Virus record (IMG/VR): IMGVR_UViG_3300031565_000167
Span: 1-36,587 of that record
DNA from: a virus
Length of the DNA stretch: 36,587 nucleotides
Direction: 5' to 3' (one strand)
Part shown: positions 1,033-18,532 of the stretch, piece after piece
How positions within the stretch are numbered: position 1 is the first letter of the stretch
How the letters are laid out: each line of letters begins with the position of its first letter
Position numbers and translations under genes: made by a program
The notes under the pieces: generated by a model
Told to the model about the DNA's origin: nothing
Seen by the model: only the letters and a program-made list of their open reading frames with translations
Databases searched by the model: none

Positions 1033-2457
1033 CTACTTGGGTGGATTCCACGAGGAGAGGAGCTTCCCAAGATGGAGCATGTCCTTCGCCTCTCCGTGAG
1101 TTGGTTTACGGCCAAGTGCCCGCTCGCAAGCGGTCAGGAACCCGGCCAAGTTTGCGTACCGTCTACTGGCCCCCACGGAGAGGGAGGCACGATACAATTC
1201 AGTTCCAATGCGAATGCCCATCTGGTCGTTGGCCGCGGCCAACTCGTTGATCAGGGCAACCTCGGAGTCTGCGGTGCGGATCAGGCCCTTGATGAAGCTG
1301 CCATAGGCTTGCTTCTTCCGAGCTTGTTTGATCACGTCTTCGCCCGTCGAATTCGCGGGCTCACCGGGGGAAGGCGTGGGGCCCTGCATGTCTTTGTCCA
1401 TGCGGTCCTGCACGCGCTTCATCATCTTCTTGTAGAGCTTGTCTTCCAGCCCTTGAAGGTCGTCCTTCTCTTCGGGAGCTTCTTGGGGAGCTTCCTCGCC
1501 ACCGCCCTCGTCGGGAGTGTCAGTCTCACCGAAATCGAACTCACCTTCGGCCGTGGTCGGCACCTGGACAAGCCGAGCAGCCTTCTCCACGCCGCCCTCA
1601 ACCCACTCAGGGGGAGGCGTCGAGAGAACCTCAGCCACCCGTGCAGCGACCTCTCGGGTCGGTGTCAGGATGTTGCGCATGACCGCTCCGCCGAAGGCAG
1701 GGGTCGCAACCCAGGACGCCTCGATGAAGGTCACGCCTGCGTTGGGGTCAAGCGAGGGGTGTCCGCAAAGCTCAGCGATCCGATGTTCGCCGCCCTTCTC
1801 ATCGTAGAAGCGGTTGCCCTTCTCGTACTTGATGTGATTGCACATTTCCGTCTCGTCAGCCGCGACGTTTCCGCATTTCGTGCAGATCGTTTCGGTGACG
1901 GAACAGCCCATCGAGAGGGTGCCCATCTTGCCGGACTCAATGTCCTTGACGAGCGCCGAGTGCTTGCGGTGGGTGGCAATCAGAATGTCGATGTAGACCG
2001 AGGGGCCGATATCACGCGCAACTGCGTCGATGATCCGGCCCTTGCTTTGCTCCTCGATCTGAACGTGCTCAACGAAGTTGTGGGCGCCGACAAACGTGCG
2101 ATAGCTCTTGAGCAGCACGTCCCGGTCCCAGCAGTCGTTGTTGTTGTTGATGAATTGGTCGCACTCGGGCGTGACGCGGAAGTCAGCCCACTTGCGGTTC
2201 AACTGCTTGCCCGTCATGGGGTCCATGACGGAGCCCGTCTTGACGCCCGTGACCTCGCTCGTGTCCACCGAGCAAACGATGGTGGCGTGGGTCAGCAGGT
2301 AGCTGTTGGGGTCGAAGGTCTCCCCCAAGATCTCATTCGCCTGCGCGACCAGATTGGCCGAGGGCTGTGCGGTCGAGGCCGTACGAACCTTGCTCCACCG
2401 CTTGCCGGAGCAATGCGGCTTGACGACCTTGGCGCGTGCGTAGCGAAGGAAAGCCAT
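1033..2457 (-). CDS. Prohead maturation protease-like protein with zinc-binding insert
   Basis: 474 aa. The segment around residues 108-190 resembles phage prohead proteases: a DRDVLLKSYRTFVGAHN region, a candidate catalytic His131 in EHVQ, Asp157, and a candidate nucleophile Ser182 in GTLSMGCSV. A four-ligand Cys/His cluster (C192, C195, C206, H208) follows directly and probably binds zinc. About residues 300-360 are acidic and low-complexity; the C-terminal ~100 residues are helical and may act as a scaffold or self-cleavage segment. The start overlaps the previous stop by one base (TAATG), with a purine-rich GGAGGGAG upstream. Its likely role is processing head proteins and possibly the neighbouring long multidomain proteins during capsid maturation. 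The family call is by motif pattern; the exact catalytic residues are inferred. Confidence 0.75.
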   Translation of the reverse strand: MAFLRYARAKVVKPHCSGKRWSKVRTASTAQPSANLVAQANEILGETFDPNSYLLTHATIVCSVDTSEVTGVKTGSVMDPMTGKQLNRKWADFRVTPECDQFINNNNDCWDRDVLLKSYRTFVGAHNFVEHVQIEEQSKGRIIDAVARDIGPSVYIDILIATHRKHSALVKDIESGKMGTLSMGCSVTETICTKCGNVAADETEMCNHIKYEKGNRFYDEKGGEHRIAELCGHPSLDPNAGVTFIEASWVATPAFGGAVMRNILTPTREVAARVAEVLSTPPPEWVEGGVEKAARLVQVPTTAEGEFDFGETDTPDEGGGEEAPQEAPEEKDDLQGLEDKLYKKMMKRVQDRMDKDMQGPTPSPGEPANSTGEDVIKQARKKQAYGSFIKGLIRTADSEVALINELAAANDQMGIRIGTELYRASLSVGASRRYANLAGFLTACERALGRKPTHGEAKDMLHLGKLLSSWNPPK

Positions 2458-3027: not shown

Positions 3028-3462
3028 CTATTCGGCAGCGGCTTCAAGCTCAGCGATGCGGGCAGCCATACGAGCGATGCTTGCTTGCACCTTCGACGCG
3101 GCCTTGGCGTTGCTGAATCCGCCGGTCTGCTGGACCTCACGAAGCTCGTCAAACTCCTCCTGAATGAAGTTCTTCTTCATGTAGGGCTCGTCTCCTTCGG
3201 TCTTCGGAGGCGTTGCATCCTGCTCGCCGATCTCGGCGGGGTTGAACGGCTGCGAGGGGCCGACGTTGAAATTCCCCTTGGGGTCCATCGTCCACTGACC
3301 GGCGTGCTTTTCCAGGTGGTCGGAGATCAGATCGCACCGCTTGGCGAAATCCATAGCGATCTTCTCGGGAATCAGGAGCGTCCCTGCGTTTTTCTGAACG
3401 AGGGTTGCGAGGTTATCAAAATGGTCGGTGAGCAGCTTGGCCTGCTTCAGAGCTTCAGACAT
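3028..3462 (-). CDS. Probable separately initiated 144-aa C-terminal product (nested in-frame)
   Basis: ATG 3462 has a perfect AAGGAG (3470-3475) seven nt upstream, the strongest ribosome site in this part of the window, yet it lies in frame inside the 1359-aa reading frame with no stop before it. The product begins MSEALKQAKLLTDHF and is helical, with a coiled-coil tail (KVQASIARMAARIAELEAAAE). The roughly 35 residues just before this ATG (SSPYTTTRLSAERPACAGLP) look like translated intergenic DNA rather than a protein domain. Either the upstream gene lost its stop, or both a long fusion and a short product are made, as lambda makes a short scaffold from inside its protease gene. Which product exists cannot be told from sequence alone. 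Confidence 0.6.
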   Translation of the reverse strand: MSEALKQAKLLTDHFDNLATLVQKNAGTLLIPEKIAMDFAKRCDLISDHLEKHAGQWTMDPKGNFNVGPSQPFNPAEIGEQDATPPKTEGDEPYMKKNFIQEEFDELREVQQTGGFSNAKAASKVQASIARMAARIAELEAAAE

Positions 3463-6400
3463 TGGTTTTCTCCTTGACGGCGCGACGGGAAGTCCAGCGC
3501 AGGCGGGTCGCTCTGCACTTAAACGTGTCGTGGTATAGGGGGATGATTGAAATTTGAAGGCCGATTTTTTCCCCAAATTATCGGCTTCGGTCCCAAACTC
3601 GCCCTCCGCGGGCTCCGAATTCAGGAAATCAGGGTTGCCAGTTTCAATAAACCGGCGAATTGCGAGGATCATCGGGGAATTTGGGAGGTCCCCAACCTTC
3701 TCCTCCAAGAACTCAAGGTACTGCCGAAGGTTTGCCTTCCGCATTTCGACGGCAAATTCGCCGTCGGATACTCCGAAACTTCCAAAGTTGGAGTTTTGAC
3801 CGGCCGTTTTCTTCTTTTTGTCGAAGAGGGATACTCCGAGAAATCCCTTGAGTAGATCGAGAAATCCCTTGTCCTTCTTTTTCTTGCCGATCTTCCGGGC
3901 CTCGTTGGCCCAAAGGTCGCGGTGTTCTGGAATTTTTGAGTCGCGGCCCATGAGAATGTCGTCCTCCACGTCGCCCTTCGGGGGCTTCGGGACGAGCTTC
4001 TTCTTCTTGACCTTCTTGCCATCGACCTCTTCTTCGACCTCTTCTTCGACGTACTCTTCCTGGGGTCCGGCCTCCGCCTCCATCGCCTCGCGCATGAGTT
4101 TGTCCACGATCACCATGTCGTCCACGGCGATCTGAACCATGAGGTCACGAAGGATTTCCTTCTTGTCCCCGGTCATGTACTCGGTGCCGTCGCCGCCCTC
4201 GATGGTGTCCTTGAGTGCCTTGGCAAGCTCAGGCTGAGTCTCTTGCGTTGCTCGGATCAACGACTCGTCGTCCATGCTCTGCAACGCCTCGGTCATCTTG
4301 CTGATGCCTTCGGTGGAGTAGAGGTTCTGCACAGGGCCGAGGAGCAGGTGTGTTTGACCGTCGGCGACCAAGTGCTTCGCCAACTCGACAAACCCCTTGC
4401 TCACATCCCTCCCAGGGATCTTGGCGATGGTTTCGGATTCAGGGTCCGTCCAGGCAGCCAACGCGAGCCCGTCGAGGATTCGATTCAATTCCTGAGCTTC
4501 GGGTGAGCCCCTCTTCGCCGTCTTGAGCTTTTCGGAAAGCGTCTTGGCTGCACCTTCCCGAAGCTCGGGTGGAAGGGCTTTGAATTTTTCAAAGGCGGCC
4601 ATGCCCCGGGCATCCAGATCCGTTGGCGATTTGGGATCGTTGTTGACCTCTTGTCCCCCCACATTGAGTGGGTTCGCAATGATCGTAGCTGCCAAGATTT
4701 GCAGTGCCGCCTGTTCGGCGATCTGCCACGGGTCCTGGCTCGTGATTTCCTTTGACTGGATCGCAGCCACGGCTGCCGCGATGACACTAGAGTCATCGGG
4801 GTTCTCCGCGAGGACTCGCTTGAGCTTGTCAGCCTCGACCCCAATCGCCTGCTGGACCGCCAACACCTCGTCAGGGTCCATCGCTGCGAGGGCGCCCTCG
4901 ACCTTCTGTACAACGTCCCTGGGAAGCTCTGAGACGAGCTTGCCGCTTGCTTTGGCGAGTGCCTGTTTGACCTTTCGGAGCGCCTTCTTACGGTCCTTGC
5001 CCTTGCCCTCGTACCGCTCGACAACCCGCTTCGCTGCGAGCATGTCAGCCACGCTCTGCGCCAGATTTTCAATGGCTACGTCGTCGGAGGCACCGGGCGT
5101 AGTCAGGTCATCGAGATTCTCGTAAAAGTCGGAAATGTCCCCACGGGCCTGTTCAACCGACTCCTCGCTGTCGTTGTATTTTTGCTCGCCCCCGCCCAGT
5201 GCCTTGAGGACCGCCTCGGAGAAGGTTGAAACCTCCTTCGCAGTCATGCCTGCCATCTGCTCGTCAAGGGCTCGACGTAGGTCCGAGGGGATGCGATAGC
5301 GCGCGTCCTTCGTGTCCTCTCGGAGCTTCTTCTGAATCGCGTCGATCGACTTGCTGATCGCCTTCTTCGCCTTCGACCCTCGGTCTTTTTCTACAGAGAG
5401 AACATGCTCGGCACGGACCCGCTCGGCAACGTACTCGGCCAGCTTGGCGGGATCCGTTTCGTTCTCGATCTGGTAGTCAGCGTTCTCGTCAAGGAATCGC
5501 TCGGCCTTTTCGATAGCGTCGGGACCAGTGATCTCGGCGCTCGCCATCGACTCCGCCCATTTCTTCGACGCGTCAAAAAAGACCCCCTGTTCTTGAGGGC
5601 TCATGGCCGCCAGGGCCGCTGGCAGGTATCGCTTGACCTCTGCGGGCAACTGCACGCGCCCACCTTGGAGCGTCGAATCGAATACCTTGCCGACCTCCTC
5701 GGTCAGTTTGGGGGCTTGGGCCTTAGCAGTTTCCCCGGGCTCCTTGGCCTTGGGCTCCTTTTTCGTCTCACCCTCTAGCTTCTTTTCAGCCTCGGCGATC
5801 TGTTTTTCGATCTCAGGGCGCTTGGAAAGATCCTTCTCCCCGTCCAACCTGATCTTGAGGCTTTCAACCTCCTGCTCCAGCTTCTTGCGGCCCCCAGACT
5901 CTTCTTCCTCACCCTTCTCCGAGTCACCCTTGGGCTCGTCGTCGTCCTTCTTCTCCTTGCCCTCGCCCTCTTCGTAGAAGTCCTCCCAGGTCTGAGACGT
6001 GCCGGGGTTCTTGCGCTTGTAGTCCTCGTGGAGCTTCTTCGCACCCTCGGGCGTCGGGGATTTGAACGCCAGGAACCGATGTGCCACTCGCTTGTAGTTG
6101 AGCGACATGTCGGGGTCCTTCTCGTTCTCGTTCTTCATGTCGGGATCCGAGTCCGAATCGGAGTCATGGACGCGGTTGTCCCGAAGGTCGTAGCGCGGGG
6201 GCTTCTTCTTCGGCTCCTTGCGAACGTGATCCTGGGCATCCTCATCCTGCTTCTCAGCGTCGCTTTTGGTCCCAAGCCGCGCCCACTCGGCGATCAAGCT
6301 GGCAGCCTTGTTGAGCTTGTCGATCACGGTGCCGTCCTTCATGTAGGACTCCTCCAATGCAGGGACGAGGTATTGGCTCCGTAGCGTGCTGGGCTCGTGA

Positions 6401-7107
6401 CCCACCGCCTTCGCCGTCTCCTCCAGTGCCCGCTTGAACTCGTCCTTGAGCTTCTTCTCGCGCTTCTTCTTGTCGGAGGGGAGTGGCCCCTTCCGCTGCG
6501 CTTTGAGCATGTCGAGCATCTGTTCGTTGGCGTGAAGACCCCGCAAATCCTTGGCGGTGATTCCTTTGGGGAGGTACGCATTGACCTCCTCCGCGCCCAC
6601 GCAAACCGTCGAGTCGCCATCCTCACAGGTGAAGATCGGATCGGAGCCCTTCTTGCCCTTGACCGCTTCCTTCAGCAATTTGACCGCGCTGCTGTCCGAA
6701 ACCGTCTTGGTCTGCTTGACCCCTGACTTGCCGACGTAGGAGACCGTCGCCTTGCCCCCGGAGAACGAGACGTGCTTGACGAGCCACCCCGTCACACCAA
6801 AGTGGCCCTCCTTCGCGCTCTCGTCGTTACCCACTCGCTCGTAGGTGTGGTCGATGAGCCCGACGGCCAGCGCGGTGAGCCGCGTTTTCAGATCCTTGGC
6901 CTTGTAGTCCTTCTTGACCTTCTTCACGAGGTCAGACCGGATCGACCGGAGCTTCTGCACGCGATCGGCCTTGTCGTTGTTGCGCCTCGACACCTGTCGA
7001 TCGCTGTACTCGTAGACGGTCATGTCCTTACCGTCCGAGTCCTTGACGACCTTCTTGTCCTTGTACTTGGCGCGATACAACGCCGCGATATGCAATGCGC
7101 TTTTCAT
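3028..7107 (-). CDS. 1359-aa virion-region polyprotein with N-terminal type IB topoisomerase domain
   Basis: Residues 1-270 match a poxvirus/bacterial-type topoisomerase IB, which nicks one DNA strand through a 3'-phosphotyrosine and relaxes supercoils. All five catalytic residues are visible: Arg91 (YERVGN), Lys127 (YVGKSG), Arg189 (KDLRGLHAN), His237 (VGHEP) and Tyr246 (SQYLVP). The nine-residue His-Tyr spacing equals that of vaccinia topoisomerase (H265/Y274). Residues 285-333 form a charged linker; 334-350 (MSLNYKRVAHRFLAFKS) read like another protein's N-terminus; 350-470 are Lys/Glu-rich coiled coil; 470-1210 are mostly helical without known motifs; 1216-1359 form a separable C-terminal module. 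GTGA/ATGA-type coupling with the upstream gene (4-nt overlap) supports the start. In-frame Shine-Dalgarno/ATG pairs at 6108 and 3462 suggest shorter products too. The topoisomerase call is firm; virion location is inferred from neighbours. Confidence 0.85.
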   Translation of the reverse strand: MKSALHIAALYRAKYKDKKVVKDSDGKDMTVYEYSDRQVSRRNNDKADRVQKLRSIRSDLVKKVKKDYKAKDLKTRLTALAVGLIDHTYERVGNDESAKEGHFGVTGWLVKHVSFSGGKATVSYVGKSGVKQTKTVSDSSAVKLLKEAVKGKKGSDPIFTCEDGDSTVCVGAEEVNAYLPKGITAKDLRGLHANEQMLDMLKAQRKGPLPSDKKKREKKLKDEFKRALEETAKAVGHEPSTLRSQYLVPALEESYMKDGTVIDKLNKAASLIAEWARLGTKSDAEKQDEDAQDHVRKEPKKKPPRYDLRDNRVHDSDSDSDPDMKNENEKDPDMSLNYKRVAHRFLAFKSPTPEGAKKLHEDYKRKNPGTSQTWEDFYEEGEGKEKKDDDEPKGDSEKGEEEESGGRKKLEQEVESLKIRLDGEKDLSKRPEIEKQIAEAEKKLEGETKKEPKAKEPGETAKAQAPKLTEEVGKVFDSTLQGGRVQLPAEVKRYLPAALAAMSPQEQGVFFDASKKWAESMASAEITGPDAIEKAERFLDENADYQIENETDPAKLAEYVAERVRAEHVLSVEKDRGSKAKKAISKSIDAIQKKLREDTKDARYRIPSDLRRALDEQMAGMTAKEVSTFSEAVLKALGGGEQKYNDSEESVEQARGDISDFYENLDDLTTPGASDDVAIENLAQSVADMLAAKRVVERYEGKGKDRKKALRKVKQALAKASGKLVSELPRDVVQKVEGALAAMDPDEVLAVQQAIGVEADKLKRVLAENPDDSSVIAAAVAAIQSKEITSQDPWQIAEQAALQILAATIIANPLNVGGQEVNNDPKSPTDLDARGMAAFEKFKALPPELREGAAKTLSEKLKTAKRGSPEAQELNRILDGLALAAWTDPESETIAKIPGRDVSKGFVELAKHLVADGQTHLLLGPVQNLYSTEGISKMTEALQSMDDESLIRATQETQPELAKALKDTIEGGDGTEYMTGDKKEILRDLMVQIAVDDMVIVDKLMREAMEAEAGPQEEYVEEEVEEEVDGKKVKKKKLVPKPPKGDVEDDILMGRDSKIPEHRDLWANEARKIGKKKKDKGFLDLLKGFLGVSLFDKKKKTAGQNSNFGSFGVSDGEFAVEMRKANLRQYLEFLEEKVGDLPNSPMILAIRRFIETGNPDFLNSEPAEGEFGTEADNLGKKSAFKFQSSPYTTTRLSAERPACAGLPVAPSRRKPMSEALKQAKLLTDHFDNLATLVQKNAGTLLIPEKIAMDFAKRCDLISDHLEKHAGQWTMDPKGNFNVGPSQPFNPAEIGEQDATPPKTEGDEPYMKKNFIQEEFDELREVQQTGGFSNAKAASKVQASIARMAARIAELEAAAE
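3463..3475 (-). promoter_or_regulatory. Strong internal ribosome binding site for the 144-aa product
   Basis: Read on the minus strand this is AAGGAG plus a seven-nt A-rich spacer immediately before ATG 3462. It is canonical in sequence and spacing, which argues that initiation here is real even though the frame is already open from 7107. Confidence 0.7.
6109..6120 (-). promoter_or_regulatory. Possible internal ribosome binding site at a module border of the topoisomerase polyprotein
   Basis: AAGGA (6116-6120) lies seven nt before the in-frame ATG at 6108, which opens MSLNYKRVAHRFLAF, a sequence typical of an N-terminus among the neighbouring proteins. Initiation here would yield a product lacking the topoisomerase domain. 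The AAGGA is also explained by Lys-Asp codons in a charged linker, so chance is a real alternative. Confidence 0.35.
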
Positions 7108-8441
7108 GCCGGCACCTTTCCCTGAAGCATGCTTCGCATGTCCGCGTCGCTGTAGCCCTTCTCCATGTCTTTCACGATCTGGTCGTAGAGCGCGTCCACG
7201 AATTTGCGAACCGGGTCCTTGGAGCCCTTGTCGTCGGCCGCCAACACCACGTCCTTGATCACATCGAGAATCTTGCCGAAGCCGGGAATGTCTCCGGTCG
7301 TGAACGGAAGATTGGCGCCCGCAAAGGTGGCAACTGTTTCCGCTGCCTCAACACCCAAGAACCCCTCGTCAAAAAGGGCGCTGCACGCCTTGATCCCGAC
7401 GTGAAGCGAGAAACTGTGAAGGAGCGCCTTGGCCCCGCCGAATATCGCGGCCCCTACGAGCCCCCCACTCATCGCCCCTGCGATACCCCCGGCGACATAC
7501 ACCGAGACTCCGTAGAGGGTTCTGAGGTCGCCCTTCTCCAGCTTCCCGCCCTTGATCAAACGCGAAAGGATGCGGCCCGCCTTCGGAAAGGAGTCAGCCT
7601 CAGATTTGAGGGACTCCCAAAGTGATTTCTTCACCTGGGGTGCCTTCGTCTTGAGCACCTCCGCTGTTTCCTTCGTGCGCTTCTGACGGTGTTCCTTGTC
7701 GAACAGGAATTTCTGCGTCTCCTCGGGGGCAGCCCGAACCGCGTCTGCGAGCGCCTTCTTGACCCCTTGGATCTTGGCGAGGGCGGCGTCCGCAAGGCTC
7801 TTTCCGCGACCCTTGCTCGACGCTGGACCCTTGACCGTGTGCCTCTTCGGGTCAGCCTTGGGGTGGTCTTGCAGGTACTTTTTGCGCTGCTTCTCACTCG
7901 CCCATTCCTTCGCCATGTGGAGAGCGGCAACGCGCTCACACGCACCCTTGAACCACGTCCCCCGATCCGAATCCCAGCCACCTCTTGCTGTCGTAAACGA
8001 GAACGAGCGTATGGGGAACCTTTGCGACTCTGCGTCTGCGCCGGGGTCGAGAACGACGTAAGCCGCATTGTGATGCTCAGTGGTCGCACGCGTCGCCGTC
8101 GTGAACCACAAGTGGGCCGTGCGCCCGTTAGGGCCACGCACCTCCCAAGATCGCCCAGTCCTGAGCACCTTGTACTGTTGACCATCGAGCTTGACCACGG
8201 CGTCCGTCGAACCACGCTTCTCCACGTCGGTGTGCCAGATCTTGAACAGACCGAAGGTCTTGTTCTTCTTCCGACCCTTGGGGATGGGCTCAACCTCAAC
8301 CGTAGGGTTGCCCTTTTCCGTGCGTCCAAACGAGACGATGCGGCCCCGCTTGTTCTTGTACTTGCCGAAGAAGATCAGATCGCCGACGCTGAAATAGCCA
8401 GCGACGTGCAGCGAGGCGACGCGTGTCACAGAGGGCTTCAC
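7104..8441 (-). CDS. Virion-region protein with SH3-like N-terminus and hydrophobic Gly-rich segment
   Basis: 445 aa. I chose GTG 8441 because AAGGAG lies five nt upstream and the start overlaps the preceding stop as GTGA; an open GTG six nt further upstream lies against the ribosome site. The N-terminus has RVASLHVAGYFSVGD and a probable SH3/KOW-like barrel (GDLIFFGKYKNKRGRIVSFG). A second RVAALHMAKEW motif near residue 167 is followed by a Lys-rich KKYLQDHPKADPKRH segment. Residues about 310-370 form a long Gly/Ala/hydrophobic stretch (VYVAGGIAGAMSGGLVGAA) that could insert in a membrane or pack in a virion core. No enzyme motif is visible. Its place between two enzyme-bearing polyproteins suggests an internal or ejected virion protein, by inference. 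Confidence 0.75.
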   Translation of the reverse strand: MKPSVTRVASLHVAGYFSVGDLIFFGKYKNKRGRIVSFGRTEKGNPTVEVEPIPKGRKKNKTFGLFKIWHTDVEKRGSTDAVVKLDGQQYKVLRTGRSWEVRGPNGRTAHLWFTTATRATTEHHNAAYVVLDPGADAESQRFPIRSFSFTTARGGWDSDRGTWFKGACERVAALHMAKEWASEKQRKKYLQDHPKADPKRHTVKGPASSKGRGKSLADAALAKIQGVKKALADAVRAAPEETQKFLFDKEHRQKRTKETAEVLKTKAPQVKKSLWESLKSEADSFPKAGRILSRLIKGGKLEKGDLRTLYGVSVYVAGGIAGAMSGGLVGAAIFGGAKALLHSFSLHVGIKACSALFDEGFLGVEAAETVATFAGANLPFTTGDIPGFGKILDVIKDVVLAADDKGSKDPVRKFVDALYDQIVKDMEKGYSDADMRSMLQGKVPA

Positions 8442-10513
8442 GACCACTCCTTGATCACGTGGGCTGTCAGGGCTGACCCGTGGAACGCAAGCTCAGGCTT
8501 GTTGAGGATGAGGGAGCGAGCGAAGGGCATGATGCGCCCTCGGTCACGGCCTTCCAGCTTCAGCCTGCTGATGACTTCCCCGTTGTTGACGGGGGGCTTC
8601 ACAAGGGCGTCGAAGAACCCTTGGGCTTCGTCCGACTCCATCCGAACCGTGATCTCTCGGACTCGTTGGCGGTCGCGCGGAGCCAGGAACGAAAGCGAGG
8701 TCTTGGCGGGGAGGCCCAGGTCGAGCCAGTCGAGAAGAAGCCCCACACGGCGCTCCTTGCCCAGCACGCGAGCGAGGGCAGAGGAAAACGACTTCTGCTC
8801 CCGCACCATGTCGTGCAGCACGTCGAGGATGCCAAGCTCCTTCATCTGCTTCAGGGATTTGCGAGCCGTCGGCTCCGGCAGAATTGCATCGACCAAGATC
8901 GACATGAGCGCCTCGTAAGGCATTCCCTTCATCTTCGGAGCGTTCCGTTTGATCGCCTTCGCCAGATCGGGGGGGACCTTGAAGCCGTACTTGCCCGTGA
9001 ATTTGATCGCGCGAAGGATGCGTGTGGGGTCGTCGGAGAACACCTTGTCGGGGTCCGCCGGACACTGGAGAATGCCCTCCTCCAAATGCCGCTTCCCGCA
9101 GCCGGTAAGGTCGATGATCTCGGCCTTCTCAGGACCGTGGGTGAGGTCCATGAGCCTCCACAGGAGCGTGTTGAACGTGAATTCACGTCGGTACACGTCC
9201 TCCTCGATAGTGGCGGGCTCGACCTCAGACGGCTTGTAGCCCTTGCCCGCCGCGCCCCCATAGCTCTCCTTGCGAGCGTTGGCGATCTCGATCACCTCGC
9301 CCTTCAAGTTGTCGCCGTCCAACTCCCAGTCGCCCTTCACCGTCAGGATGGCGACGCCGTATTGATTCGTGGTCAGGTTCGTCTGCGTCGGGATGGCCCG
9401 CGCTACTTGATCGGCGAACCATTCGGAATCCTTGCCTGCGGCGACCGAATCGATCACCACGTCGATATCCTTGATCGGCTTGTCGATCAGGAAGTTGCGG
9501 ACGGCGCCTCCCACAACGTAGGTGTGTTGGCCGACACCGTGGTTCTGCGCAACCCTGGACAGGAAGCGCATGAGCGCGATGGACCGTCGGTGCGCCGAGG
9601 CTTCGATCCACACGGAGGCCACACGGAGGTTGGACGCCTTGCCAATGGGGATCGTGTGTACGCGAGGCAGCCCCCAGACCTCCATCTCCGTCACGTCCCA
9701 CGAGCCGCTTGGAACGTGCTTGTCCCACTCCCCGTCCATACCGGGGAGATAGGCGAGGGTGACGTGAGGCTTGAATTCGGGAAACTTGTCACCGACCTCA
9801 AAGCCCTCATCTCGTAGCTCCTGCATGACCCGCTGTTTGAACCCCGACAAGTCTTTGTCGAAATCGACGGACACGTGGGGAACTCGACGGTTCTTGTCGG
9901 CGTGGTCGAAATACTCCAAGGGGCCGAGGATCGCCTTGCACTTGGGCCACCAGCGACGGAGACAGTCGCGTAGCGTCTCGACCAAACGAGCCTGTTCGGC
10001 CTTGTCTGTGTAGTCGCCAATGTAGAGAAACGTAACGTGGCTCGGGGAATCGTCATTCTCCCCGAGACCGGGAAATTGAATGGCCAGATTCTTGGGCAGC
10101 CGGATGAAAAGACCCGCACTGGAGCCGTCCCCCGTGCGCGGCCCGGTTGCCTTCGCCATGAAGCGCCGGCTAACACTTGCCAACAGCGCGCCGGGAAGCT
10201 CCGAGTGCCCCTGGGGCATCGGCACCTCGTTCATCTCGTCCTTCTCGTCGTCCTGCTCGTCCTCGTCCTCGTCCTCGTCCAGACCCTCACCACCGGGACG
10301 GAGCGGGTCGGCGGACATGCCGATGTCGTGGCCGTCTGCCTCACCCAAGTGGCGAGACGCGACGCGAGACGCAAAGGTATCGATCCAAGCCTTTTCGATC
10401 GGATCTTCGGCCCAGACCGTAAACGTGGCGTCCAGTAGACCTGGAGTCACGATGTACGCTTTCCGCGCTTGTTTGGGGTTGGGGGCCATAGCCTTCGCTA
10501 AAGCCCTCCCCAT
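8438..10513 (-). CDS. 2H phosphoesterase fused to CCA-adding tRNA nucleotidyltransferase-like protein
   Basis: 691 aa. Residues 130-300 form a 2H (LigT/cyclic phosphodiesterase) fold with both His-x-Thr motifs: HVT at 159-161 and HVT at 250-252. Residues 325-515 match the class II CCA-adding enzyme/poly(A) polymerase head and neck: GGAVRN (335-340), the metal-binding pair Asp349/Asp351 in KDIDVVID, RREFTFNTLLW (442-452) and DPTRILRAIKF (495-505). The rest is helical, as in CCA enzyme bodies. The N-terminal 60 residues carry RVASRHLGE, then an Asp/Glu run, then SVSRRFMAKA. The family-level reactions are hydrolysis of 2',3'-cyclic phosphate or 2'-5' bonds and templateless CCA addition to tRNA. 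Acting in sequence on damaged tRNA 3' ends is my inference. The start is uncertain: ATG 10513 or ATG 10489. It lies 24 nt after the portal gene. Confidence 0.88.
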   Translation of the reverse strand: MGRALAKAMAPNPKQARKAYIVTPGLLDATFTVWAEDPIEKAWIDTFASRVASRHLGEADGHDIGMSADPLRPGGEGLDEDEDEDEQDDEKDEMNEVPMPQGHSELPGALLASVSRRFMAKATGPRTGDGSSAGLFIRLPKNLAIQFPGLGENDDSPSHVTFLYIGDYTDKAEQARLVETLRDCLRRWWPKCKAILGPLEYFDHADKNRRVPHVSVDFDKDLSGFKQRVMQELRDEGFEVGDKFPEFKPHVTLAYLPGMDGEWDKHVPSGSWDVTEMEVWGLPRVHTIPIGKASNLRVASVWIEASAHRRSIALMRFLSRVAQNHGVGQHTYVVGGAVRNFLIDKPIKDIDVVIDSVAAGKDSEWFADQVARAIPTQTNLTTNQYGVAILTVKGDWELDGDNLKGEVIEIANARKESYGGAAGKGYKPSEVEPATIEEDVYRREFTFNTLLWRLMDLTHGPEKAEIIDLTGCGKRHLEEGILQCPADPDKVFSDDPTRILRAIKFTGKYGFKVPPDLAKAIKRNAPKMKGMPYEALMSILVDAILPEPTARKSLKQMKELGILDVLHDMVREQKSFSSALARVLGKERRVGLLLDWLDLGLPAKTSLSFLAPRDRQRVREITVRMESDEAQGFFDALVKPPVNNGEVISRLKLEGRDRGRIMPFARSLILNKPELAFHGSALTAHVIKEWS

Positions 10514-10537: not shown

Positions 10538-12559
10538 CTACTCTTCGGCCAGCTTGGCAGCCATTTTCTCGGCGACCTTCTCGGCGACCAGATCGGCCAC
10601 CCGATCGGCCACAAGATCGGCCACAAGAGTCGCTAGCACGTCGATTCCGCCTCCTGTGGAGGGCGCGGTTGCGACGCTTGCGGTCTTGGTCGAGGCGAAT
10701 CGACCCATGCTGCCCTCTTCCTCCGGCTCCTTGTACTCCAGACCCAGGTACTCGGCCTGCTTCTCCACGAAATCGGATCGCTCGCCCAGGGAGGTGCCGG
10801 CCTGAGAGTACAGACCACGGAGCACTTCGTTGTAGGTCGGGTCCTTGAACGTGGCGAAGTCCCGCTGAAGCTCCTCGGTCGCCGAAATCGCGTCGATGTT
10901 GAGCAGGTCGTAGATGACACTGATCGGCAACGAGCCCTTTTGGTAGAGGTTGAAAAGGGCGTCGTAAACGTCCTGATTGTCTCGGAGGGCGAGGCGGGTG
11001 AAGGAGAGTTTCGGGTAGACGACCTTCTCGGAGCCCCACTGGTCGATCTCGATGAAGCCCATGCGCGCGCACATCGGCTTGAAGAGATTCTGCTCCACGA
11101 AATCTTGGATGAACTCGCGGACCAGCATGTACCGGACGTTGAGCACCTCCAAGTTGATCCGGTCGCCGGAATAGCTCGATTCACCCGACAAGAGCGACTC
11201 GGTGACGCCGAGGCCAGCGTAAAGCTCGCGGTTGATCAGATCGTACTCGGACGAAAGCTCCAGCAGACGACCTTGCGGGGTCATCTCCTCCCATGTCACC
11301 TGAAAGTTGGTGACGATGGAGTAGTCGGGGTCTTGGAGCGCGAGGTCGATCTGGTCGCGCAATGCTTCCGTGTCGGCCTCGTTCATGCCCTCTGCGTACA
11401 CGAGCCGGATAGGCGTCATGTGCCGTGACGAGATGCTGGTCTGCGCTTGGCGCAGCTTGTCCTTGTAGACGAGGGTACGGATGCACCGTTCCAGCTTGGA
11501 GTGTCCGCGCGGCTCGTACTGAGACACGCGGTTCGCCATGAAATAGTAGAAGCTGCCGGCCTCGGAATCCGTGTTCAACGGGACGTTAGCGCCCTCTCGC
11601 ACCGCCATAACAATGTCTGGCGGCATCGACTCCATGACCTTGATCGCACGCTCGTCGGCTTGGTCAGCCTGCTCGATCACACTTTTGGTCTTGGAGTCAG
11701 GGATGAGCGACGCCATGATCTCGTCCGACATTGGGAACGAGTCGAGGTGAATTTGCTCGGGCGGGAGGATGCGAATTTTCGTCCAACCGCGGTAGTTCTT
11801 CCGCAGCCAATCCGACGCGCGCTTGTCCGCGTCAGGCCACAACGTTTTCTGCTCCTCAAGCTCGCCATCTTCGTGGAGGATGTTCTTGATCTCGTAGCGA
11901 ACCTCCTCCGGCATGTCCTCGTTGTCGTCCTCGATGAACCAGTGAGTCTCGCCGATGACGTTGAATTCGTGGAGCCCTTCGGAGAGGCGGTGCAAGAGGC
12001 CAACGTCCGACACCCAGCGCTTGCAGAAATCAAGAGCCTCCTGCGCCATGTCGTCGGACTGCGCCTCGGGTCGGCCGAGACGGATCTTCGACAGCGGAAG
12101 CTGTCGGTGAATATCCATCGCCTGACCCACGAAGGGGTCGGCCCGGTAGAAGAAGCGGAAGTAGTTGCGTTGCTCATCGAGCGACTGGGGAAGCTCAAGG
12201 AAGTCGGTCGAAAGCTCGGGCGAGTAGAAGTTGCCGCCGCTGCCCACCATCGAGCTACCGACACCACCGCCGAGCCCACCACCTGAGCCGCCGGACATAC
12301 CGGAGCCGGGACCGCCGATGCCGCCCCCTCCGAAGCCGCCACCGCCGCCTCCGATGTTCGCTACTTTGGATCGCATTGATCCAAGTGCGACCTTGGATGG
12401 CTTACCGACCGTAAGATCGGGTCGCGGACCCGCACGATCCGCGCTTGACGGGATCGAAGCGACTTTGACCGCGCCTTCGTTCGTTGGAACGCTCGCAGAT
12501 CCGGCGATATAACGCCGGGAAGCGACAACCCGTCGCCGTTTGACTCGCTGCTTAGCCAT
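10538..12559 (-). CDS. Portal protein
   Basis: 673 aa, the usual size for large portals, which form the dodecameric ring through which DNA is packaged and ejected. The core (residues about 110-590) reads like a phage portal: FLELPQSLDEQRNYFRFFY, VGQAMDIHRQLPLSKIRLGR, EFNVIGETHWFIEDD and the helical RINLEVLNVRYMLVREFIQ. Residues 10-20 contain VVASRRYIAGS, a motif shared with neighbours. Residues 70-110 are a Gly/Ser-rich disordered stretch. The last 35 residues form an amphipathic heptad-like tail of VADL/VADR/VAEK units encoded by a short tandem DNA repeat. It sits two small genes downstream of the large terminase subunit, the classical order. The start overlaps the previous stop by 8 nt, and AGGGGTG precedes it. 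Confidence 0.85.
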   Translation of the reverse strand: MAKQRVKRRRVVASRRYIAGSASVPTNEGAVKVASIPSSADRAGPRPDLTVGKPSKVALGSMRSKVANIGGGGGGFGGGGIGGPGSGMSGGSGGGLGGGVGSSMVGSGGNFYSPELSTDFLELPQSLDEQRNYFRFFYRADPFVGQAMDIHRQLPLSKIRLGRPEAQSDDMAQEALDFCKRWVSDVGLLHRLSEGLHEFNVIGETHWFIEDDNEDMPEEVRYEIKNILHEDGELEEQKTLWPDADKRASDWLRKNYRGWTKIRILPPEQIHLDSFPMSDEIMASLIPDSKTKSVIEQADQADERAIKVMESMPPDIVMAVREGANVPLNTDSEAGSFYYFMANRVSQYEPRGHSKLERCIRTLVYKDKLRQAQTSISSRHMTPIRLVYAEGMNEADTEALRDQIDLALQDPDYSIVTNFQVTWEEMTPQGRLLELSSEYDLINRELYAGLGVTESLLSGESSYSGDRINLEVLNVRYMLVREFIQDFVEQNLFKPMCARMGFIEIDQWGSEKVVYPKLSFTRLALRDNQDVYDALFNLYQKGSLPISVIYDLLNIDAISATEELQRDFATFKDPTYNEVLRGLYSQAGTSLGERSDFVEKQAEYLGLEYKEPEEEGSMGRFASTKTASVATAPSTGGGIDVLATLVADLVADRVADLVAEKVAEKMAAKLAEE
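10567..10629 (-). repeat. Short tandem repeat encoding the portal C-terminal helix
   Basis: The 10-mer gatcggccac occurs at 10591, 10603 and 10615, a 12-nt period, flanked by two ggcgacc-type units. It encodes four-residue VADL/VADR/VAEK units forming an amphipathic helix. Such repeats can change length by slippage without breaking the frame. Confidence 0.75.
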
Positions 12560-12935: not shown

Positions 12936-13184
12936 CTACCCCCACTTGGGGGCCTTGGAGATCCAACCGTTCTTGATCCCGGCCTTCAGGATGTTTTTGA
13001 GGAGCTTTGTGTGGCGGACAGATCCCTTGAAAACCTTCTCCCAGGAGCCACCGAGCTTTCCGAACACCGCGATGGCGTGGTCGTACTCGTGGGGAAGGTT
13101 CTGGACCTTCTTGCCTTCAAGCAGATCCTTGATCAGCCGGTAGTCCGCGCGAGCCGGGTCTGAGGGGTCGAGTACCTTGCCCAT
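12936..13184 (-). CDS. Small hypothetical protein following terminase
   Basis: 82 aa, basic, starting at an ATGA overlap with the large terminase stop. It contains ADYRLIKDLLEGKKVQNLP and KLLKNILKAGIKNGWISKAPKW and is predicted mainly helical with a short basic tail. No known motif is seen. The coupling suggests it is made together with the terminase; it could bind DNA or the packaging complex, but that is only positional reasoning. Confidence 0.65.
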   Translation of the reverse strand: MGKVLDPSDPARADYRLIKDLLEGKKVQNLPHEYDHAIAVFGKLGGSWEKVFKGSVRHTKLLKNILKAGIKNGWISKAPKWG

Positions 13185-15217
13185 CAGCCCTTCAACCTCC
13201 CGCCACGTACAGGCATGAACCCGCCGCGGCCCTCCCGTCGTACCGTGCGCTGCTCCATGCTTCCACCGTTCTTGGCCGCGATCCTGTTCTTGCGCTGAGC
13301 CGCAGCCGAGATGCGGTGGCGGTTGGGTCCTCTCGACCCCGCCCGTGCGATGTAGGCCCGGTTTGAGAGTTTGTCGCTGGCGAGCCAGATCATGCGCACA
13401 AGCGCGTCGGAAAGGTCATCGTGCGCGCCTCGGATATTCGGGGCCTTCACGGTGACGACGTACTTCGATTTGTAGTCGGCCTGGAGCGTGAGTAGCTCGG
13501 CGAGATAGGGCATGTGAGCCGGGGCCTTGCCCTCGGAGTCACGCAGCGCCTCGCGCTGGTCCTTCGTGTAGTCGAACAGCACGATCCGCTGATCGAACAT
13601 CATGTCCTTGAAGTTGCGGAAGATCTGACTGTTGAGGGTCTGGGTGAAATGCGTTGCCTTGCACTGCTTCAACCCCTTCTTGAGCAACGCCTGCTCCATC
13701 GGGATACCCGACCACTGGTCGAACATGCCCTCATCGATCAAGAAGCGGCGCGACAAGTCGTAGACCCAATCCGCCACGTCATCGAACTCCAGACGCTCCA
13801 TCCCGACGAAATCGCCCTCGCCAGCTTTGATCTGATCGATGTAGTCGAGAATGATCTGTTCGTTTTCGATGTGGCCGATGGCGACGGCCGAGCCATCGTT
13901 TGCGAGACCAACATCGAGCCCGAGGAAGTAGGGCATCCGAGGGATGCCACGGCTGCGTGGCTTGTGGGCCACGTCCACGCACGCCATGAGATCCTTCGCG
14001 TCATCGATCCATCCAAGAGTACGGTCGCTGAACTTGCCACCGTACTCGGTGTCGAACATGCGGGGGTCCTTGACGTACTCCCCGGCGAAGAATTCGGAAG
14101 GCAACGTGGGGTTGACCTCCCAGGTGGGTGCTTCGATAGCGAGCATCTTGCCCGCTGCCTTCGACCCGCCCATCGCAAGCTGGAACTGCTCGTAGAATTT
14201 CCCCTGCCGACCCAACGGCGAGGAAATCAGGATCATGCGGCCCTCAACCGGACCGATGGGCTCGTGCGTGTTGTCTGGGTTCTTCTGCGAGAAGGCACCC
14301 ATCGACGGCTTGACGGCTTGATACACCTCGTCAGCCGACGACTGCCCACCATCCGTAAAGTGGGCAACCTCGTCCAGAATGATGACGATGTTACCAGCAC
14401 CACGAAGGCCCTTAGCGATGCAGGACCGGAAGGTGACGTTGATGCTGGCCGCGGAAGCGTTCGGGTTCTCGGCGTAGCGACCGTGCCGGTCGATATCGGA
14501 GGGAGTCTGGAAGCGCGCGAAGGACTGAGTAGCGTTGGCTTGGTAAGCCCGGAAGAATTCGCATCCCGCGAAATACTTGGCAACGTCGCGGTACAGAAGA
14601 CCGGCCTGATCCTTGTCGGTAGCGACCGAGATCAACTGGATTGTGTTGCCGTCCGGCAGGCCGTAGTACGACTGGGGGTTGCCCTTCGACAACAGCTTGT
14701 AGGTCTCGTAGGCGGCGATGCACGCGGAGATCGTCGTCTTACCCGAGCGACGGCCGACGCTCAGGATCATCTCCCGGCGCTCCTCGCCCTCGATAACCTC
14801 GGAGATATTGCAGCGGCCTTCGGAGTACAGATGGCGGAGGTACTCCGCCTCGGTCATCCAAAACGCTACGTTGGGGATCGGGTCGCCTCGGAAATCGCAG
14901 ACGCGGATGGTCCGACGCATAACGTGTCGGATCAGCGTCTCTTTGTCAGAATCGGGGTTGAGCATCGGGTGCTCGACCGCAGCGATGGCGTACAGTTGCT
15001 CCTCGTCAAGCTCCTCCAGTTGCTCGTCGGTGAACGCGTCTGGAGTATCGTCAAGCGCAATGCCGTAGTGGGCCTTCAGGATCACCTTCTGGACGGGGTA
15101 GAGCCTCTGCGCGAGACCCCAATCAGACTCAATGAACTCGATGATATTGGCGATGGGCTGTTCACCCACCTCCTGACGCGCTTCATCGAGGACGATGCCC
15201 CCAAGCCCAAGACTCAT
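13184..15217 (-). CDS. terL: Large terminase subunit (packaging ATPase/nuclease)
   Basis: 677 aa. The N-terminal ATPase drives DNA into the prohead and the C-terminal RNase H-like nuclease cuts the concatemer. Visible motifs: Walker A SVGRRSGKTT (153-162, Lys160), Walker B IVIILDEV (277-284, Asp282/Glu283), coupling motif ISSPLG (331-336), nuclease Asp435 in FLGLDVGLAND, and the late acidic motif GAHDDLSDAL (597-606). Catalytic positions of both domains are present, so the protein should be functional. The last 60 residues are Arg/Gly-rich and probably disordered. The start directly abuts the stop of the upstream gene, the probable small subunit. Confidence 0.95.
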   Translation of the reverse strand: MSLGLGGIVLDEARQEVGEQPIANIIEFIESDWGLAQRLYPVQKVILKAHYGIALDDTPDAFTDEQLEELDEEQLYAIAAVEHPMLNPDSDKETLIRHVMRRTIRVCDFRGDPIPNVAFWMTEAEYLRHLYSEGRCNISEVIEGEERREMILSVGRRSGKTTISACIAAYETYKLLSKGNPQSYYGLPDGNTIQLISVATDKDQAGLLYRDVAKYFAGCEFFRAYQANATQSFARFQTPSDIDRHGRYAENPNASAASINVTFRSCIAKGLRGAGNIVIILDEVAHFTDGGQSSADEVYQAVKPSMGAFSQKNPDNTHEPIGPVEGRMILISSPLGRQGKFYEQFQLAMGGSKAAGKMLAIEAPTWEVNPTLPSEFFAGEYVKDPRMFDTEYGGKFSDRTLGWIDDAKDLMACVDVAHKPRSRGIPRMPYFLGLDVGLANDGSAVAIGHIENEQIILDYIDQIKAGEGDFVGMERLEFDDVADWVYDLSRRFLIDEGMFDQWSGIPMEQALLKKGLKQCKATHFTQTLNSQIFRNFKDMMFDQRIVLFDYTKDQREALRDSEGKAPAHMPYLAELLTLQADYKSKYVVTVKAPNIRGAHDDLSDALVRMIWLASDKLSNRAYIARAGSRGPNRHRISAAAQRKNRIAAKNGGSMEQRTVRREGRGGFMPVRGGRLKG

Positions 15218-17227: not shown

Positions 17228-18532
17228 TTACTCTCTTACGGTTGTCCAGTCCTTGAATTCGGACAGGGGTGGGTGTTCTTCGATCCCTTCAGCCTCCTTG
17301 GCGTCAGGTTGTTCGGTGTCGATCACGTAGCGATGCAGCGTCGAGAGGGATTTACCCCCCGGCTGCTCCTTGATCTCCACCGGAGTAGGTGGGGTGGCGG
17401 GGTCGGTATCGAGGTTCGTGTCGCGCTTAGATTTGACGAATTGGGTCAATTCGTAGCGCTTGGGGTCGTCCCGAAACAGGTACTCAACGGACGGGGCAGC
17501 CTTGTCCCCGATGGCGGCATGCTTTTCGATCTTCTCCAGCTTGTCGTAGTAGGCAGGGTCTTCGGTGAGATGATCAAAACTGATCTCCAGGGCAAGAGCG
17601 GGATCATCGGTGTGCTCGCGCTCAATCTTCAGGCCCTTCTCGATCTGGTCCTCGTCAAAATCGTCGCGTTTCGCCTTGTCGCCCAGACCACCGGGGATCT
17701 GGTCTTCGTGCTCGTCGTCCTCTTCAGAACGTTTGATCGGGCTAAACGACGAGAAGCCTCCCCAGGATTTCTCCACCGGGGTCCACTCCCCTCCCCATCC
17801 GCCCATTGGCGTTGCAGTCTTGGACTGAAGGTCAGCCTCGATGATCTGCATCGCGCTGTTGAACTCTTCCTCGCCCACCTCGCCTTCGACGGCCCAGGAT
17901 CCGTCGGCAAGCCTCTCAGCGCGCCAAAACTCTCCCTCTTCCAGCGCAGCCGTCTTGTACGGCATCTGCATGTCCTTCTCAGGCTCCATGCCCATTTCCT
18001 TGTAACGATCGTTGAGGGCGTTCACATCGACAAGTAGCTGTTGGAGCAGGTACGTGTGTGACTCGTGATTGGACGCGATCGACATGAGGAAATCGTCCAA
18101 TCCAAGGGTCATGCGGCCCATCTGCTTGATCGAGTCGTACGCCTTACGAACGCACTCTTGAAACTGGTCCTCCGAATGGAGGCCGCGTTCCACATGGCAA
18201 TTCGCGTAGGCAACCCACTCGTGAACGCGTTGGGACATCAGGTCCACAAGGCTCGACGGGTCAACGGCCCCCAAACCAAAGTAGCCGATCATCTTCTCGG
18301 CGAGCGTGTCGATTTCGGGTTGGACCGACTCGTACAATCGTTGAAACAGAAGGTGATTGCCGTAGCTTGGCACCCCGGCCGTCTGCCAATGGGCCGTCTG
18401 GTAGCTCCAATACTGCGCACGCAGGCACACCAGCACATCAGCCAAGAGTGCGTGTCCCGCCTCAACGCCGGGGTTCACGTCCCCGCCGGGCAGGGGGTCA
18501 ACGCCACTCCAATATGCTTCGTGCTTCGTCAT
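17228..18532 (-). CDS. Dps/ferritin-like domain fused to DUF5661 domain
   Basis: 434 aa, with GAGGAG six nt before ATG 18532. Residues 25-170 form a four-helix Dps-like domain. Aligned by the HW...H...D...E pattern, four of the five Dps ferroxidase ligands are kept: His48, His60, Asp75 and Glu79 correspond to E. coli Dps His51, His63, Asp78 and Glu82, with exact 12-, 15- and 4-residue spacings; Asp67 is replaced by Gln64. Residues 195-285 are acidic, Trp/Gly-rich linkers. Residues 291-340 match DUF5661 (IEKGLKIEREHTDDPALA, FDHLTEDPAYYDKLEKIE). Dps proteins oxidise and store iron and bind DNA; whether this one does either, and whether it is packaged in virions, is inferred. Its place among structural genes argues against a purely metabolic role. 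Confidence 0.8.
   Translation of the reverse strand: MTKHEAYWSGVDPLPGGDVNPGVEAGHALLADVLVCLRAQYWSYQTAHWQTAGVPSYGNHLLFQRLYESVQPEIDTLAEKMIGYFGLGAVDPSSLVDLMSQRVHEWVAYANCHVERGLHSEDQFQECVRKAYDSIKQMGRMTLGLDDFLMSIASNHESHTYLLQQLLVDVNALNDRYKEMGMEPEKDMQMPYKTAALEEGEFWRAERLADGSWAVEGEVGEEEFNSAMQIIEADLQSKTATPMGGWGGEWTPVEKSWGGFSSFSPIKRSEEDDEHEDQIPGGLGDKAKRDDFDEDQIEKGLKIEREHTDDPALALEISFDHLTEDPAYYDKLEKIEKHAAIGDKAAPSVEYLFRDDPKRYELTQFVKSKRDTNLDTDPATPPTPVEIKEQPGGKSLSTLHRYVIDTEQPDAKEAEGIEEHPPLSEFKDWTTVRE

Follow-up and report, generated by a model that had tools for sequence, protein, structure and literature searches.

A 2H phosphoesterase joined to a CCA-type nucleotidyltransferase among the head genes of huge phages: a candidate tagged cargo module for tRNA 3'-end healing

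Positions 1 to 36,587 of the IMG/VR virus record IMGVR_UViG_3300031565_000167, the whole stretch of 36,587 nucleotides that was analysed and is referred to here as the window, include an open reading frame (ORF) for a 691-residue protein in which a 2H phosphoesterase domain is joined to a CCA-type nucleotidyltransferase (NT). This 2H–NT ORF lies among head genes, which follow one another on one strand in the order terminase large subunit (TerL), portal, 2H–NT, a 447-residue protein, a topoisomerase IB, a 231-residue ORF and the head protease (Table 1). We refer to the region between portal and protease as the cargo interval. As called, the 2H–NT ORF overlaps that of the 447-residue protein by 10 bases, which in turn overlaps the topoisomerase ORF by 4 bases, and therefore the three probably form a single late operon.

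The 2H–NT ORF begins with ATG, has no internal stop and is read as a single intact chain. A first-pass annotation of the DNA had claimed that both HxT motifs of the 2H fold and the signatures of a nucleotidyltransferase are present in this one chain, and they are: two HVT motifs are found in the 2H part, followed by GGAVRN (residues 335–340), DID (349–351), RREFTFN (442–448) and DDPTRILR (494–501) in the NT part. Pfam assigns residues 155–261 to PF13563 (2_5_RNA_ligase2, E 2.6e-9) and residues 331–482 to PF01743 (PolyA_pol, E 1.2e-14), both above the curated cut-offs, while a match to the RNA-binding family PF12627 at residues 510–566 falls under its cut-off. PHROG 2244, annotated 'tRNA nucleotidyltransferase', matches with an E-value of 4.3e-29 and the top phmmer match in the PDB is the CCA-family enzyme 3h37 (E 1.3e-15). 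An AlphaFold model built from a 59-row alignment (predicted template modelling score 0.63) has a predicted local distance difference test score (pLDDT) of at least 90 at 481 of the 691 residues and below 50 at residues 1–34 and 51–124; the 2H fold is present in the model, with a pLDDT of 89 for that domain, and a long helix (residues 295–324) connects it to the NT. Judged from its sequence, the ORF did not arise as a chance frame and has not decayed. The Pfam scan of the ORF found no HAD_SAK_1 domain ('HAD domain family 1 in Swiss Army Knife RNA repair proteins') and neither of the polyvalent-curated domains ART-PolyVal and InPase. No second PolyA_pol match and no tRNA gene were found in the window, and a PADLOC search gave no match.

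Table 1. Positions of the 2H–NT ORF, its parts and the neighbouring head genes in the window
Feature	Position	Strand	Basis
2H–CCA nucleotidyltransferase (NT) ORF, 691 aa	8438..10513	-	ORF call, Pfam, PHROGs, AlphaFold
Candidate tag RVASRHL, residues 50–56, disordered N-terminal region	10346..10366	-	coordinates computed from residue numbers
2H phosphoesterase domain, residues 133–289 (first to last model strand)	9647..10117	-	Pfam and AlphaFold
First HxT motif (HVT, residues 159–161)	10031..10039	-	alignment
Second HxT motif (HVT, residues 250–252)	9758..9766	-	alignment
Class II CCA-type NT, residues 312–691	8441..9580	-	Pfam, PDB sequences, alignment, fold search
447-aa cargo-interval protein; tag-like RVASLHV (residue 9) and RVAALHM (residue 172)	7104..8447	-	ORF reading
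1359-aa topoisomerase IB protein, tag RVAHRFL at residue 340	3028..7107	-	Pfam, motif scan
Head maturation protease	1033..2457	-	phrog_18299, E 2.9e-11
Portal protein	10538..12559	-	PHROGs
Terminase large subunit	13184..15217	-	PHROGs

Loss of the motif residues in homologs had been named in advance as a finding that would count against the fusion as an active protein, and when this was checked the residues had not been lost. Both histidines and both threonines are kept in 67 of 68 aligned 2H domains, the exception being a partial match, and among the rows of the 70-row NT alignment that cover the respective positions the two glycines and the first aspartate are intact in 61 of 61 and the second aspartate in 60 of 60. 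By these alignments both enzymes appear to be alive. The 2H domain seems nearest to RNA 2',3'-cyclic phosphodiesterases, in profile and model comparisons alike, with Acb1 more distant: the profile search gives 5h7e, an RNA 2',3'-cyclic phosphodiesterase, at E 1.3e-9 and the best Acb1 at 0.012, and the structure search is led by YjcG (Z 14.7, root-mean-square deviation 2.7 over 151 aligned residues) and drCPDase (Z 14.6, 3.9 over 162), followed by Usb1 (13.2), LigT (12.9), the rotavirus VP3 phosphodiesterase acting on 2',5'-oligoadenylate (2-5A; 12.3) and the Acb1 entries (8.1–8.6). An Acb1-like destruction of cyclic nucleotide signals, which had been offered as the alternative role of the 2H part, is weakened by both rankings. 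The two HxT motifs, the fold and the best profile matches are thus shared with the ThpR/LigT, YjcG and drCPDase enzymes, whereas identity to the best structural matches is only 15–18%, the domain is here fused to an NT and its activity is a prediction. In the fold search for the NT part, CCA-adding and tRNA-processing enzymes lead (6qy6, E 2.8e-13). The NT has the GG, DxD, RR[ED] and DDxxR motifs and the head fold of class II CCA-adding enzymes, and differs from them in having RRE instead of RRD in 50 of 58 rows, in falling below the NCBIfam cut-offs and in being fused and sometimes split by an intein.

Used as a query, the 691-residue protein matched one viral contig, identical across the protein, and neither it nor the 2H profile had a match in the genome_contigs collection. 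In the phages collection 76 records matched it, none across more than 80% of the query, and among the 20 matches listed the alignment lay nearly always within the NT part; queried by itself, the 2H part found a single record there, Virus Rctr197k. The latter encodes a more distant mosaic (locus L040, 4787–10906), a 2039-residue ORF with InPase, DUF7178, DUF5661 and a related 2H domain. To reach relatives, TerL and portal were used as queries (9 and 26 loci; contigs of up to 618,736 bases), followed by domain alignments; the domain-profile searches used the best 80 of 87 and the best 80 of 119 matches, and the survey is accordingly a sample. The 182 loci with a 2H or NT match were reduced by shared 6-mers to 103 representatives, of which 60 have an NT, 67 a 2H domain and 25 both. 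The two domains share one ORF in 18 and occupy separate ORFs in 7, while 35 have only an NT and 42 only a 2H domain within the fetched stretch of the locus; L119, with a lone 2H match at 6e-4, was too weak and stands outside all architecture classes. The order within the 18 single ORFs is 2H before NT in 14 and the reverse in 4, and these cases include one cut at the contig end (L014), one covering NT model positions 11–254 only (L068), two with the last third of the NT in a different frame (L016, L034) and three with an insert within the NT (L013, L191, L044).

The wider architectures are those of a mosaic. In relatives the 2H or NT domain is also found fused with topoisomerase IB, GNAT or ART domains, the longest such ORFs reaching about 2,800 residues; in L027 an NT with an intein, a 2H domain, a topoisomerase IB and a GNAT domain all lie within one ORF of 2805 residues, and in L017 two 2H domains are followed by the NT as a separate ORF. 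A less biased sample than the domain-profile survey is provided by the 17 phages that were found through TerL or portal alone and have at least 5.5 kb of sequence after the portal: eight have both domains, four only the NT, one only the 2H domain and four neither, one of the last four (L006) having an NT further on in the same contig (L169). A search for the same fusion next to portal genes of other phages had been suggested with the original prediction, and 2H and NT domains do recur after the portal in many huge phages. A fixed two-step machine was not borne out, as order and joining vary and many representatives have one domain only. The pairing of 2H and NT is frequent but not obligatory, and the cassette shuffles, with fusion as one of its states.

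The products of LigT-type 2H enzymes carry a terminal phosphate, and therefore a phosphatase is needed before CCA can be added. Repair of tRNA 3' ends, proposed in the first-pass annotation as a possible two-step process, is still the best-fitting job for a chain with both active sites intact, but two steps are insufficient. The missing phosphatase could be supplied by HAD_SAK, which is found in some relatives and not in the window ORF. It shares an ORF with the NT in L021 (in the order NT–HAD–2H) and L140 (NT–HAD), and lies 31, 434 and 637 bases after the NT in L173, L144 and L169, respectively. In LR745208 (L041) it is fused to a topoisomerase IB. Among the eight whole records, RtcB was found in four and an Rnl2-type ligase in three, one of these below the cut-off. 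That 2H is linked with a CCA-type NT and with HAD_SAK speaks for end healing, over the RNase activity or 2-5A degradation that Iyer et al. 2017 (PMC5512222), in their passage on polyvalent 2H domains, consider more likely because they had never seen these with RNA ligases.

Missing from the first-pass annotation is the mosaic cassette, with a peptide tag recurring in its ORFs, of which the protein forms part. In a count of gapped four-residue patterns over 225 ORFs, RVA.R ranked seventh by enrichment, with 34 copies observed and 1.5 in shuffled sequences; most of the other enriched patterns seem to come from runs of glycine or glutamate, or from conserved parts of portal and terminase. In the cargo interval of 44 representatives and four loci added by hand there are 74 copies against a shuffle mean of 5.75 (maximum 12 in 20 shuffles), a few of the 74 lying in overlapping frames of at least 200 residues that this group includes. 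Elsewhere the pattern is rare, with no copies in portal, TerL, g18536 or g15218, two each in g17228, the protease and standalone NT ORFs, one in standalone 2H ORFs and eight in other ORFs near standalone NTs (4.7 shuffled). The consensus is RVA[SA]R[YWHF][LVM], and in domain-bearing ORFs, where domains make up 33% of residues, 51 of 62 copies lie outside recognised domains.

A tighter form, [RK][VIL]A.[RK][YWHF], was placed along the ORFs of five large contigs, with 'near a terminus' defined as within 25 residues and expectations taken from 50 shuffles. It was found near the C-terminus 19 times (1.2 expected), near the N-terminus 14 times (0.96) and elsewhere 36 times (8.96); the N-terminal positions rest on a greedy ORF caller, the C-terminal positions do not. 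The 33 terminally tagged ORFs fall into 17 families once the tag is masked, and in five of the eight families with more than one member the tag is N-terminal in one ORF and C-terminal in another. This changing of ends between homologs fits a docking peptide rather than common descent alone. Tagged ORFs with recognised domains include HAD_SAK, topoisomerase IB, a C39-like peptidase and a SAM (S-adenosylmethionine)-lyase-like protein, and seven of ten tagged ORFs scanned had no Pfam match. The SAM-lyase-like protein (L275, 9060–9635, in record G007; PF23780, E 1.9e-6, about at the cut-off) begins with the tag and, if injected, would suit an early anti-restriction role. A docking peptide was preferred to a protease cleavage site, which was also considered. 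In the 19 C-terminal copies the six-residue core is followed by no more than about 4 to 11 residues, so that a cut would free hardly any peptide, and the tag is missing from the start of the G002 major capsid ORF, which has 38% identity to phage G gp27 (annotated 'major capsid'). Five spellings of the tag gave no match in the open-access papers searched.

The domains, the intact motifs, the head-gene position, the mosaic shuffling, the HAD association and the tag enrichment were each computed directly, and the head-operon position, the mosaic of several enzymes per chain and the tag, taken together, make virion cargo the most economical reading. We tentatively favour, as the leading reading though at somewhat less than even odds, that the 2H–NT protein is a tagged cargo module loaded into the virion that would heal tRNA 3' ends, its activity, substrate and packaging and the function of the tag all being predictions. 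The ORF would be one module of a portal-proximal cargo cassette of the polyvalent type in a group of huge phages. Its 2H domain may open the 2',3'-cyclic phosphate ends of cut tRNA, a phosphatase, which in some relatives could be HAD_SAK in the same chain or next door, would clear the terminal phosphate, and the NT would then rebuild the tRNA 3' end. The peptide RVA[SA]R[YWHF]L would serve as a docking tag bringing these enzymes, and others for takeover or counter-defence, into the prohead, from which they would be delivered along with the DNA, to act on host tRNAs straight away. A broader proposal, possible but somewhat more doubtful, is that one portable tag, found in many unrelated proteins at either terminus or where domains meet, is a general head-loading label; with its help the phage would carry a ready-made RNA-repair kit (2H, HAD and CCA NT) together with topoisomerase IB, ADP-ribosyltransferase, acetyltransferase and SAM-lyase-like enzymes, to be injected and to mend host tRNAs before phage genes are expressed.

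Several results weigh against these proposals. The tag is not exclusive to the cargo interval, since a wide form of it also exceeds shuffles in two upstream families, g18536 (9 against 3.1) and g17228 (5 against 0.8), as well as among standalone NT ORFs (6 against 1.9). It is weak in G004 (9 against 2.65) and is missing, as said, from the G002 major capsid ORF. Among phages of the same portal family, the stretches read contain no copy in LR745208 or Tunturi_5 and one copy in phage G. The link between HAD_SAK and NT is occasional, being seen in five of the 60 NT-bearing representatives, and HAD_SAK is present in three of the eight whole records. On the NT, the NCBIfam matches (pcnB at E 8.2e-25, CCA models at up to 7.2e-23) are all far below cut-off and do not discriminate between CCA addition and poly(A) addition. 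Finally, ARAGORN finds a full CCA encoded in only 22 of 67 tRNA genes in the fetched parts of G001 and 13 of 46 in those of G004, and because so few encode it, maturation may there also be the job of the NT.

That last point leads to the plainest competing account, in which the NT simply matures phage tRNAs, the 2H domain trims RNA ends and the place beside the portal is an accident of the late operon. The 45 of 67 and 33 of 46 tRNA genes of G001 and G004 without a full encoded CCA speak for it, as do standalone NT genes outside the interval, such as that of G003, where the 2H domain is in the cargo interval and the NT stands elsewhere. We nevertheless think it rather unlikely: G003 and G007 have an NT and no tRNA gene in 220 kb and 240 kb, respectively; maturation of the phage's own tRNAs fails to explain the NT of G002 because 64 of its 67 tRNA genes encode CCA; and both the cargo position and the tag are left unexplained. 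For phages that lack tRNA genes or encode CCA in them, serving host tRNAs or repair is the most plausible task of the NT. In G001, G002, G004, G006 and G007 the NT is in the cargo interval with no second match (it is split in G007), G005 has its 2H domain in the interval and only a distant NT elsewhere, and LR745208 has none. As a side observation, in nearly all tRNA genes of G001 and G004 (L226–L263) without a full CCA, ARAGORN reports a partial tail, C or CC, at the end, which may be an effect of the program.

Two further accounts give the protein another role. In one, the NT is an unrelated polyvalent partner and the 2H domain, like Acb1, silences alarm signals by degrading cyclic oligonucleotides or 2-5A; the fold matches to the VP3 phosphodiesterase and to Acb1 given above, the usual mixture of enzymes per chain in the polyvalent class and the proposal of RNase activity or 2-5A degradation for polyvalent 2H domains in the text of Iyer et al. 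2017 (PMC5512222) all agree with it. It is made improbable by the greater closeness of the 2H domain, in both sequence and structure, to RNA cyclic phosphodiesterases, and by its repeated linkage to NT and at times to HAD_SAK. In the other, host tRNA or mRNA is disabled by a Usb1-like nuclease and an NT that acts as a tailing enzyme adding poly(A) or pyrimidines. The poly(A) polymerase pcnB is the best partial NCBIfam match, Usb1 is among the structural matches and ART-PolyVal and GNAT domains occur in cargo ORFs of relatives, yet the fold list is led by CCA-adding and tRNA-processing enzymes and the HAD_SAK companions indicate repair, so that we hold attack on host RNA to be very unlikely.

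The cassette is best filed with the polyvalent proteins, and what would be new is the combination, above all the portable tag. As described in the relevant sections of Iyer et al. 2017 (PMC5512222), polyvalent proteins likewise combine unrelated enzyme domains per chain in a portal–terminase context, with predicted packaging and injection, and include 2H, ART-PolyVal and GNAT domains. Of the 2 to 15 unrelated domains per chain that define them, the window ORF has two and L027 four, and portal and terminase packaging genes are nearby; ART-PolyVal and InPase are confined to cargo ORFs of relatives. The difference is that 2H here shares a chain with a CCA-type NT, that HAD_SAK and topoisomerase IB are added in relatives, and that a portable tag recurs; the string CCA is absent from the main text of PMC5512222. 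The jumbo-phage RNA-repair genes treated by Iyer et al. 2021 (PMC7824862) include 2H, SAK-HAD and CCA-adding enzymes and, in the part of that paper concerned, play matching roles: 2H opens cyclic ends, SAK-type HAD removes phosphates and the CCA enzyme restores 3' ends. There they are listed as separate genes, with SAK mostly standalone, whereas here two or three activities share a chain or neighbourhood in the head-gene interval. The passages of PMC7824862, PMC5512222 and PMC7162821 that were covered describe no 2H–CCA fusion.

For the tag, the nearest parallel is the capsid targeting sequence of phage T4, also a short peptide that may direct proteins into a protease-matured prohead, and a head protease is encoded here as well. 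The T4 sequence is N-terminal, unlike the candidate tag, which occurs at either end or internally. The packing of much protein into the heads of large phages has a precedent in SPN3US, according to the relevant part of PMC10052503. Should the tag prove to be a loading signal, sequence alone would reveal which proteins uncultured huge phages inject, for which virion proteomics is now needed. The linkage of 2H, HAD and CCA enzymes would give a specific answer to the question of what the 2H domains of polyvalent proteins do. It also suggests that when host defences attack tRNA, the phage answers with enzymes which may already be there in the first minute of infection.

Other parts of the cassette are shuffled as well. 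DUF5661, encoded at 17228–18532 of the window, recurs inside giant cargo ORFs of relatives, and pieces of the 447-residue protein (7104–8447) are found in topoisomerase ORFs of relatives such as L029. The eukaryote-type topoisomerase IB core (window 3028–7107) is also found in many relatives between portal and protease, where the tag often directly precedes or follows it. Replication genes, named by eye only, lie at the far end of the window.

Several of these loci have in-frame inserts. One splits the NT at RREFTFN in L027 (11723–20140) and L013 (12028–15909), and also in L044 and L189; the L027 insert matches Pfam Intein_splicing and LAGLIDADG_3, and the other three show equal split match positions. 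The portal genes of L031 (9989–13456) and L034 (7334–10783) and the terminase genes of L029 and L036 are interrupted by in-frame inserts of intein-like length, at recurrent positions. In L010 (4795–7689) the first residues of an intein-like insert are joined straight to a later part of the NT, which looks like a deletion, in nature or in assembly, of the bulk of the insert and a portion of the NT.

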